Shown here: positions 8,342 through 18,412 of the stretch, piece by piece
How positions within the stretch are numbered: position 1 is the stretch's first letter
Layout of the letters: each line of letters starts with the position of its first letter
NCBI RefSeq assembly: GCF_914768025.1
Contig: NZ_CAJZCE010000012.1
Location: 1-64,000 of the forward strand
Length of the DNA: 64,000 nt
Direction of reading: 5' to 3'
Source of the DNA: Snodgrassella gandavensis
GTDB lineage: Bacteria > Pseudomonadota > Gammaproteobacteria > Burkholderiales > Neisseriaceae
The notes under the pieces: generated by a model
Seen by the model: only the letters and a program-made list of their open reading frames with translations
Database searches by the model: none
What the model was told of the DNA's origin: nothing
Translations under genes and position numbers: made by a program

Positions 8342-8588
8342 ATTTCCTCGATTTTACTGGCTGATGAACAGAAATTTGCAGGGTAGTAGAGGAAATATTT
8401 TTGTATGCAGCGGATACATGTGTAGTAAGACTCCTAGTTTTTTTGCGTGGGATGGGTTGCGAACCACGTGGTTATTTGGTTGTTAATAACGCATTGTGCA
8501 GTTTGATAGGGTTTATTCTGCTTAAGCGGTTATTTTAATGGAGTTCACTGCTTTCTAACAGGGGGTAGATTTGGTCTGTGAGTATGAT

Positions 8589-16763: not shown

Positions 16764-17312
16764 TTACGGCCGATTGCAGATTGTCAGTATGGTGCTTTCT
16801 GTCAGACACAGGTTATGCGCAAAATGCAGGCTGTTGTGTATCAGGCCCTTATCTTCTTCACACAGGGTTTCCGTTTCAATAATCAGCATCTGTTCGGGGC
16901 GGCTGGCGTGCAGGCTCATGCGCATCTGTGCCTGAGTAAACGGCAGATTATGTTTTTGCGCAAAACTGCGGGCACGGCTATTGGCGGTTTTCAGCATCGG
17001 AATCAGAGTAATGTCGAGATGGAAAATTCTAACCCCCATCACTAGTATGCGTGCAGCAAACCAGTCTGCTTCTTCACTGATGATATCTGGGGTAGGCTGG
17101 TCAAAACCAAGCCGTTGTGCGGCAATTAACATGGCCACCAGACGCAGTTGTGGAATGAGTGCTTCGCTGAGCATAAATGTTGTCTGAAACTGTGGCTGTA
17201 GCTGGCACAGGTCACTGCGGTGCTGGTTGCCATCAACTATCATGTACCAGCGTTGAAGTTGTGGTACCGGTGCGGCTAATTGTTGTAATTGTTTCAATGA
17301 TGAAGCAGACAT
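16764..17312 (-). CDS. Unknown protein preceded by an aromatic-leader attenuator
   Basis: I do not recognise this 182-residue soluble protein (start at the ATG at 17312, with GGAG seven bases upstream; the track start at 17339 is less likely). It has no signal peptide or membrane helix. It contains helical stretches such as LSEALIPQLRLVAMLIAAQRLGF and a mixed C-terminal half (QMRMSLHASRPEQMLIIETETL). Immediately upstream on the same strand are a short ORF coding for FSFAYYWYH and an intrinsic terminator, the layout of amino-acid-controlled attenuation. A role tied to aromatic amino acid or chorismate metabolism is inferred from this context alone. Confidence 0.75.
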   Translation of the reverse strand: MSASSLKQLQQLAAPVPQLQRWYMIVDGNQHRSDLCQLQPQFQTTFMLSEALIPQLRLVAMLIAAQRLGFDQPTPDIISEEADWFAARILVMGVRIFHLDITLIPMLKTANSRARSFAQKHNLPFTQAQMRMSLHASRPEQMLIIETETLCEEDKGLIHNSLHFAHNLCLTESTILTICNRP

Positions 17313-17373
17313 TTTGTTCTCCAGTATTTGTTTATACATTTTTAATGCCTTTTAGTTTGAGGCGTTTAGGGCA

Positions 17374-17406
17374 ATAAAAAAACCGCCTCGGATTGGCCGG
17401 GCGGTT
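17374..17406 (-). terminator. Attenuator terminator upstream of the unknown gene
   Basis: On the minus strand AACCGCC...GGCGGTT forms a 7-bp GC-rich stem around CGGCCAATCCGA and is followed by TTTTTTTAT. It lies between the leader peptide stop (17431) and the gene start (17312). The upstream GGTGCGGT segment can alternatively pair with ACCGC of this stem, as an antiterminator would. Confidence 0.75.
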
Positions 17407-17430
17407 CACTTTTTATTTTGCTAACAGGTT

Positions 17431-17508
17431 TTAAATAAACGCAAAAAAGCACCGCACCGAGGTGTGGTACCAATAATAAGCAAAAGAGAAAGTGATTACG
17501 TTTTTCAT
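17431..17508 (-). CDS. Aromatic-rich leader peptide (attenuator)
   Basis: A 25-residue ORF on the minus strand: MKNVITFSFAYYWYHTSVRC followed by FFAFI and TAA. Nine of 25 residues are Phe, Tyr or Trp, with a dense FSFAYYWYH block, as in the phe/trp leader peptides of other bacteria. The second half of the ORF contains the hairpin ACCaCACC-TC-GGTGcGGT (about 17449-17467), and the terminator follows 25 bases after the stop. Ribosome stalling at the aromatic codons would plausibly favour an antiterminator. The ribosome site is weak, so translation is inferred. Confidence 0.7.
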   Translation of the reverse strand: MKNVITFSFAYYWYHTSVRCFFAFI

Positions 17509-17539
17509 TGTTAAACCATAAAACATTCTGAGTGGAATG

Positions 17540-18175
17540 TCAAGAATTATTTTCTGTACCCCAGCGAGCAATTAACTGATGCGGAATCCGCAGTTGATCC
17601 AGAATGCGAGCCACTACGAAATCTACCATATCTTCAATGCTTTTGGGGTGCTGATAGAAGCCTGATACTGGTGGCAGGATAGATACGCCTAAACGTGCCA
17701 GCTTAAGCATATTTTCCAGATGAATTGCTGATAATGGCGTTTCACGCGGCACGATAATCAGCGGACGGTTTTCTTTAATGGAAACATCGGCGGCGCGTTC
17801 AAGCAGATGGTCTGAAGTGCCGGCAGCAATGGCCGCCACGCAACCCATACTGGCCGGACAGATGATCATTGCATCAGCGGGGTTGGAGCCGGAGGCGGGC
17901 GGAGCAAACCATTCATCGCGGCCAAATACGGTAAGCATGGATGGGTCGACTGCGTATTCTGCACATAATGCTGCGGTACATTGTTTGGCATTGGTAGGTA
18001 AATGCCAGTTGATTTCCTGCTGGGCGACTATCTGGGCTGCCTGTGAATACAGTAGCCAGACTTTGATATTGGCCTGCAACAGGCAGGACAGCAGTCGTTT
18101 GGCGTAGGGCATGCCCGAAGCTCCGGTTAAAGCCAGAGTAACGGTTTTGATGGGATTGGCGCTAGGAAAAATCAT
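17540..18175 (-). CDS. ubiX: Flavin prenyltransferase UbiX
   Basis: Makes the prenylated FMN cofactor used by the UbiD decarboxylase in ubiquinone synthesis. I start at MIFPSANPIKTVTLALTGASG (18175); the track start at 18238 adds an unmatched tail. LTGASGMPYAKRLLSCL is the FMN-binding loop. FAPPASGSNPADAMIICPASMGCVAAIAAGTSDHLLERAADVSIKENRPLIIVPRETPLS carries the family signature, including the CPASMG and PRETPLS segments. At 211 residues it is full length. It lies upstream of the leader peptide on the same strand, with about 30 bases between. Confidence 0.94.
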   Translation of the reverse strand: MIFPSANPIKTVTLALTGASGMPYAKRLLSCLLQANIKVWLLYSQAAQIVAQQEINWHLPTNAKQCTAALCAEYAVDPSMLTVFGRDEWFAPPASGSNPADAMIICPASMGCVAAIAAGTSDHLLERAADVSIKENRPLIIVPRETPLSAIHLENMLKLARLGVSILPPVSGFYQHPKSIEDMVDFVVARILDQLRIPHQLIARWGTENNS

Positions 18176-18412
18176 AATAAAACTAGTGTGTGTCCAGATA
18201 TGCCTGTTATTATAGCGATTTTGTTTTCGATATAACATTTTGCATACGGCCGTTTTTATTCAGTTGAAAACAATTATCAGCCAATTGGGGCGCTATTGTC
18301 CTGATATTGCGACAGATTGATTAAGTTCAGACAGCCAGCAATGTTCTGTTGGAATAAAAATATTATTTGTCTGGATGATTGAAACCTAAATACGAATAAT
18401 GGAAATATAAAC

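Follow-up and report, generated by a model that had tools for sequence, protein, structure and literature searches.

What does an aromatic-rich leader peptide control when the gene behind it cannot be recognised as an enzyme of aromatic biosynthesis? The question is raised by a locus of Snodgrassella gandavensis, located in a stretch of 64,000 nucleotides (hereafter the window; positions 1 to 64,000 of contig NZ_CAJZCE010000012.1). The original prediction, made from the sequence alone, described a 25-residue leader with nine Phe, Tyr and Trp codons, an internal hairpin and an intrinsic terminator, followed by a gene of unknown function, in the layout of the trp/phe-type attenuators that depend on ribosome stalling. 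It suggested that the gene might belong to aromatic or chorismate metabolism as a new member or that the leader might have been displaced. Every element described was found on the minus strand of the window:

17515..17543, minus strand: sigma-70-like promoter TTGACA-17-TATGGT, with 6 nt from the end of the -10 element to the leader ATG
17431..17508, minus strand: leader ORF MKNVITFSFAYYWYHTSVRCFFAFI, regulatory codons UAU UAU UGG UAC, with a conserved Y-W-Y core
17448..17471, minus strand: hairpin 1:2 (protector), within the leader ORF, from RNA folding and pairing conservation
17401..17455, minus strand: antiterminator 2:3, GCGGU (17455-17451) with ACCGC (17405-17401), the helix being extended by a U-rich tract pairing with an A-rich linker
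17374..17406, minus strand: intrinsic terminator 3:4, AACCGCC/GGCGGUU followed by a U tract, with GC/AU compensation in 23 of the 57 sequences
17319..17322, minus strand: Shine-Dalgarno GGAG of the controlled gene, assigned from sequence, 6 nt 5' of the gene ATG
16764..17312, minus strand: controlled gene, 182 aa, of an unnamed family, with a predicted fold like that of tryptophanyl-tRNA synthetase (TrpRS) and without HIGH, KMSKS or the C-terminal domain
17540..18178, minus strand: UbiX (flavin prenyltransferase), the upstream neighbour, outside the attenuator unit, its adjacency being lost in many Neisseria

The leader comprises 25 codons from the ATG at 17508 to the stop at 17431, with F/Y/W at 9/25 positions, and the protector arms ACCaCACC/GGTGcGGT (17471-17448) contain a single A.C mismatch. 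The 3' end of the controlled gene converges on a gene for an Lrp/AsnC-type regulator, so that the 182-aa gene forms a single-gene unit in this genome.

Architecture of the leader RNA

Within the 64-kb window, the leader is the sole ATG-initiated ORF of at most 26 aa with at least nine aromatic residues, and a comparable ORF arose in one of 20 windows shuffled with dinucleotides preserved. The RNA from leader to terminator folds at -34.5 kcal/mol (z = -3.6), a value equalled by none of 200 shuffled sequences. We regard the conservation of the leader in more than 100 genomes, described below, as the decisive argument against its origin by chance. Rfam models returned no regulatory RNA (T-box, Trp leader or others) at the locus at gathering score. 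The only Rfam match in the window is a PreQ1 riboswitch at 8428-8473 on the minus strand (45.8 bits, above the gathering score).

Across 57 leader sequences, 91.8% of the cells in hairpins 1:2 and 3:4 are paired, against 30-57% in slid controls, and 30 cells show two-sided changes versus 11.0 in shuffles, the strongest covariation being a GC-to-AU swap at the base of the terminator in 23 sequences. For the 2:3 helix, GCGG(U):(A)CCGC, pairing is retained in 98.2% of cells, but covariation cannot prove the helix because its sequence hardly varies. In its extended form, the U-rich UUUUUUGCG tract that follows segment 2 pairs with the A-rich linker (mean z = -2.0 versus shuffled linkers), and the outer stem is formed in 56 of 56 related sequences. 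The locus combines clustered, conserved regulatory codons with a terminator and competing hairpins that are conserved by pairing, and a ribosome-mediated transcription attenuator almost certainly controls the 182-aa gene. The hairpin and the terminator were correctly recognised in the original prediction, and leader conservation, covariation and the mutual exclusion of the hairpins lend strong support to its assignment to the trp/phe type.

At the window locus, the -10 element ends 6 nt from the leader ATG, and transcription is therefore predicted to start at about the A of the ATG. The distance is 6-9 nt in approximately 57 of the 98 loci at which the promoter consensus is well matched; in the remainder, mostly from Neisseria, the predicted 5' end lies tens of nucleotides upstream of the leader ATG. 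Judging by the promoter consensus, the leader mRNA is probably leaderless in many lineages, for which there is a precedent in the trp leader RNA of Sinorhizobium meliloti, which begins at the leader ATG (PMC7298713).

Conservation of the leader and the signal it reads

The controlled protein is encoded in 79 of 83 Neisseriaceae genomes, and the leader lies 5' of the orthologue in all 73 distinct upstream regions of this family (70 recognised by motif and 3 by reading the sequence by eye). When the genomes are searched with a covariance model (R1) of this leader RNA, 80 of the 83 yield a match; strong matches are confined to the site immediately upstream of the controlled gene, and weak ones also occur elsewhere in Neisseria and in other families. 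By way of one such weak match outside Neisseriaceae, a homologue was traced in a second family within the order, presumably Chromobacteriaceae; locus L193, among the weak matches, is a true homologue. The second-family protein, present in 60 of 61 genomes, is approximately 20-30% identical to the Neisseriaceae proteins. Its gene is preceded by a leader and pairing segments at 41 distinct loci (an example leader being MITFSAVFNAYFYWYRSSRRLQGASLD), at least four exact 2:3 pairs being present in 39 of these. At locus L221, the motif missed the leader, but the RNA model has a weak match just 5' of the gene. This comparison establishes how the RNA is built, that it is conserved and that it is linked to the controlled gene alone, and it points to one ancient switch that is common to Snodgrassella and its relatives, including the genus Neisseria. 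Four second-family genomes also carry second paralogues of the controlled gene, and these are devoid of an aromatic leader.

Two complete genomes of one Neisseriaceae genus have neither leader nor gene, yet retain TyrA and DAHP synthase. Since such a genus exists, the controlled protein is dispensable at the family scale; the idea that genomes without the gene are aromatic auxotrophs was rejected, both genomes having kept these enzymes.

Gene order around the unit varies. The ubiX gene adjoins it in many Neisseriaceae and is absent from this position in many Neisseria and at all second-family loci. At five second-family loci inspected by eye, the neighbours resemble genes for an ETF-ubiquinone oxidoreductase upstream and, downstream, for a YlqF-type GTPase and a small membrane protein. 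At many Neisseria loci, eight in number, a small conserved hydrophobic ORF, MEGLxxFIAM..WILTILxxLF, is located between ubiX and the leader promoter. In a different family of the order, a DAHP synthase gene directly follows an aromatic leader, MTSVIAHSFYAFFGFFAWYWQAAEEGCA (locus L192, one of the weak RNA-model matches, leader at ~1461, plus strand).

The existence of such leaders 5' of DAHP synthase in other genomes of the order and the unrecognised nature of the controlled gene would both suit the displaced leader raised in the original prediction, in which case the leader would be a remnant and the gene behind it a bystander. This idea was rejected: the unit is intact at more than 100 loci in two families, and the DAHP synthase and trpS loci examined in Neisseriaceae have no comparable conserved leader. 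Because leader and gene stay paired across two families while their neighbours differ, the chance that the leader is displaced is negligible.

The core of the leader is conserved at the level of individual codons. Among 83 distinct leaders, 81 have a Trp codon at the core position with a Tyr codon before it, and the codon that follows is also Tyr in 77 of these 81; the two exceptional leaders read YYYRWC. The UGGUAC sequence is partly constrained by pairing in hairpin 1:2, and the preceding Tyr codon lies outside the stem. In one second-family genus (five loci), the core reads AYYYGYRTS, the Trp codon being lost and four Tyr codons kept. With Trp but not Tyr codons dropped in this genus, tyrosine is the signal common to all; as predicted from the codons, tryptophan is an added signal in nearly every lineage. 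The Phe codons are variable and fall to one side or the other of the sensitive position. Of the aromatic codons first proposed to stall the ribosome, those for Tyr and Trp are conserved and in place, and those for Phe are off the stalling position. The geometry of the stalled ribosome is based on the size of its footprint: with UGG or a flanking UAY codon in the A site, the ribosome would cover segment 1 and free segment 2, as in classical attenuators.

The strong amino-acid conservation of the leader could alternatively mean that the peptide itself acts, through nascent-chain arrest or in trans, rather than as a sensor of codon charging, and the trp leader peptide of S. meliloti, which has a function in trans, would be a precedent (PMC7298713). 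Yet the peptide diverges between the two families outside Y-W-Y, replacement of W by G is tolerated with the Tyr codons kept, RNA pairing explains much of the conservation and the classical three-way pairing is complete, all of which make an action of the peptide highly improbable in comparison with codon-dependent attenuation.

The controlled protein

Sequence searches bear out the initial view that the controlled gene does not encode a recognisable aromatic enzyme. The members scanned against Pfam and NCBIfam matched no family at a meaningful level, the weak Pfam matches (PHP_C and others) being below every cut-off and restricted to short stretches, and a search of PDB sequences yielded no synthetase, its only match being a designed protein (E 0.033). 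In the literature searched, which takes in only a minority of subscription papers, we found no report of the leader or the gene.

AlphaFold2 models were obtained for the window protein (24 sequences, pLDDT 82) and for a second-family homologue approximately 20% identical to it (73 sequences, pLDDT 84), the two models sharing alignment members. For each model, TrpRS accounts for 49 of the top 50 structure matches in a Foldseek search of the whole PDB, with best E values of 2.5e-3 and 2.1e-3 and a probability of about 1.0, at query-normalised TM scores of 0.34-0.49, that is, below 0.5; a viral structure library gave no structural match to the product. Profile comparison with TrpRS by hhalign gave P values of 0.0045 for all members and 0.0065 for the second family alone, in the same register; earlier comparisons with shallow alignments had given P 0.026-0.064, and the match became stronger only after the second family was added. 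Among 38 non-family protein sets, TrpRS takes first place with either subfamily profile, although 4 and 5 of 150 TrpRS profiles shuffled in blocks outscored the real one. In the first block of this register, SEALLPQIRTVAMLIAA is aligned with TrpRS QS-VPE-AEL-W, and in the second, AARILVLGVR-FHLDxxLxPMLxTANxRAxAFA is aligned with TrpRS AADILxYxAxxVPVGxDQxQHLELTRDIAxRF. The structure and profile matches are suggestive of homology to TrpRS, with the TM scores below 0.5 and the weak profile P values tempering the fold assignment, and the protein is likely to have descended from, or at least to share its fold with, a TrpRS core that is no longer able to activate an amino acid.

Three hallmarks of TrpRS are missing from the protein. 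Most members are 170-205 aa long, versus approximately 330 aa for TrpRS with its C-terminal anticodon-binding domain, and they end where that domain would begin. KMSKS is found in 0 of 73 members versus 60 of 61 TrpRS, and a HIGH-like tetrapeptide in 2 of 73, where it is unconserved, versus 55 of 61. Because HIGH, KMSKS and the anticodon-binding domain are lost, the product should not charge tRNA, and it is presumably non-catalytic. In TrpRS, an Asp reads the indole of tryptophan; it aligns with a nearly invariant Arg in the controlled family, and this replacement means that the ligand need not be tryptophan.

The neighbouring ubiX gene and a resemblance noted by eye had prompted the candidate UbiC, a chorismate lyase. 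This was rejected, PF04345 having no match to the product or anywhere in the genome and the ubiX adjacency not being conserved. The genome itself encodes UbiX and no UbiC-type chorismate lyase, and the source of its 4-hydroxybenzoate for ubiquinone is not evident. More generally, the attenuator may be as described and the product an aromatic or chorismate enzyme, as originally suggested, whose fold merely resembles TrpRS, with ubiX hinting at ubiquinone (4-hydroxybenzoate) synthesis. The attenuator of the same style in front of DAHP synthase at L192, the ubiX neighbour in many Neisseriaceae and the lack of a UbiC-type lyase all speak for an enzyme of this kind, but ubiX is not adjacent in many Neisseria or at any second-family locus, no enzyme family of Pfam or NCBIfam is matched and the fold searches return TrpRS and no chorismate enzymes. 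Since its best structural relatives are TrpRS, a synthetase-like protein is likelier, and we consider a new chorismate enzyme unlikely.

Cyclodipeptide synthases (CDPSs), small proteins that resemble TyrRS/TrpRS, have no tRNA-binding domain (PMC9437257), and the size and lost parts of the product would fit a tRNA-dependent enzyme of this kind, with charged tRNA-Tyr or tRNA-Trp as the substrate. However, none of the 73 members matches the CDPS Pfam family at E values up to 10, no CDPS is found among the top 50 PDB structure matches and the catalytic Ser has no counterpart, the best Ser column reaching 52 of 73 and none being among the conserved columns; moreover, a consumer of charged tRNA that is induced by starvation makes little sense. 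An enzyme of the CDPS kind is thus very unlikely, and the truncated TrpRS-like protein remains our preferred reading.

Proposed function and comparison with known systems

On balance, we find it probable that an attenuator responding to the charging of Tyr (and, save in one genus, Trp) controls a single gene for a truncated, non-charging TrpRS-like regulator. With ample tyrosine and tryptophan, the ribosome would clear the leader, hairpin 1:2 would be resolved or segment 2 masked, and the terminator 3:4 would form, stopping transcription. When charging with Tyr or Trp falls, the ribosome would stall at UAY-UGG-UAY and cover segment 1; segment 2, thereby freed, would pair with segment 3 as an antiterminator, and the gene would be transcribed. 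The product would be left with a portion of the class Ic Rossmann core, without HIGH, KMSKS and the anticodon-binding domain, and might bind an aromatic amino acid or an aminoacyl-tRNA and adjust the aromatic supply, or TrpRS/TyrRS, under shortage. Being made at low charging, it could sense the amino acid or uncharged tRNA and then act on a partner.

A regulatory role in aromatic supply is inferred by analogy with HisZ, the closest precedent. This paralogue of HisRS has no adenylation activity and regulates HisG, which catalyses the first step of histidine synthesis (PMC9437257). A more specific proposal, which we advance tentatively and consider rather doubtful, is that the product is a catalytically dead TrpRS-like protein, induced through a Tyr/Trp attenuator with a leaderless start, that serves two families of one order as a conserved sensor or regulatory subunit in aromatic amino acid supply and is a class I counterpart of HisZ. 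In Neisseriaceae, aromatic control may have shifted to a trans-acting protein; such a shift would fit the presence of a DAHP synthase leader in another family and the lack of a conserved one at the Neisseriaceae loci examined. The attenuator implies that the protein is wanted when tyrosine or tryptophan is short, a rare functional clue to a nearly universal and unnamed Neisseriaceae protein, with members in Snodgrassella of the bee gut and all through Neisseria. Should the synthetase fold hold true, the protein would be a class I addition to the few known regulators derived from synthetases, with a direct experimental handle on the protein and its partner.

With the trpL/pheL-type attenuators of proteobacteria, the system shares a leader ORF with regulatory codons, the pairings 1:2, 2:3 and 3:4 and a U tract. 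It differs in its Tyr and Trp codons, in an unannotated synthetase-like target instead of a biosynthetic operon, in the frequent prediction of a leaderless transcript and in the lack of an Rfam match at the locus. Like HisZ, the product is proposed to be synthetase-derived, without a role in aminoacylation and tied to the supply of the same amino acid. HisZ belongs to class II, whereas the protein described here is predicted to be of class I (TrpRS-like) and is encoded by a stand-alone gene. The leaderless trpL of S. meliloti also yields an attenuator RNA that starts at the leader ATG, as predicted here, but controls trpE(G) and responds to Trp only (PMC7298713). In Streptomyces, according to the account cited in PMC4787780, the gene for an auxiliary, antibiotic-resistant TrpRS is under ribosome-mediated attenuation (Vecchione and Sello, 2010). 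As far as that account goes, the two systems share such attenuation of a second TrpRS-type gene, but the Streptomyces enzyme is a complete and active TrpRS, whereas the present product is without HIGH, KMSKS and the anticodon domain, and its universal codon is Tyr. What is new in comparison with the known attenuators is the signal, the frequent predicted leaderless start and, above all, the target.
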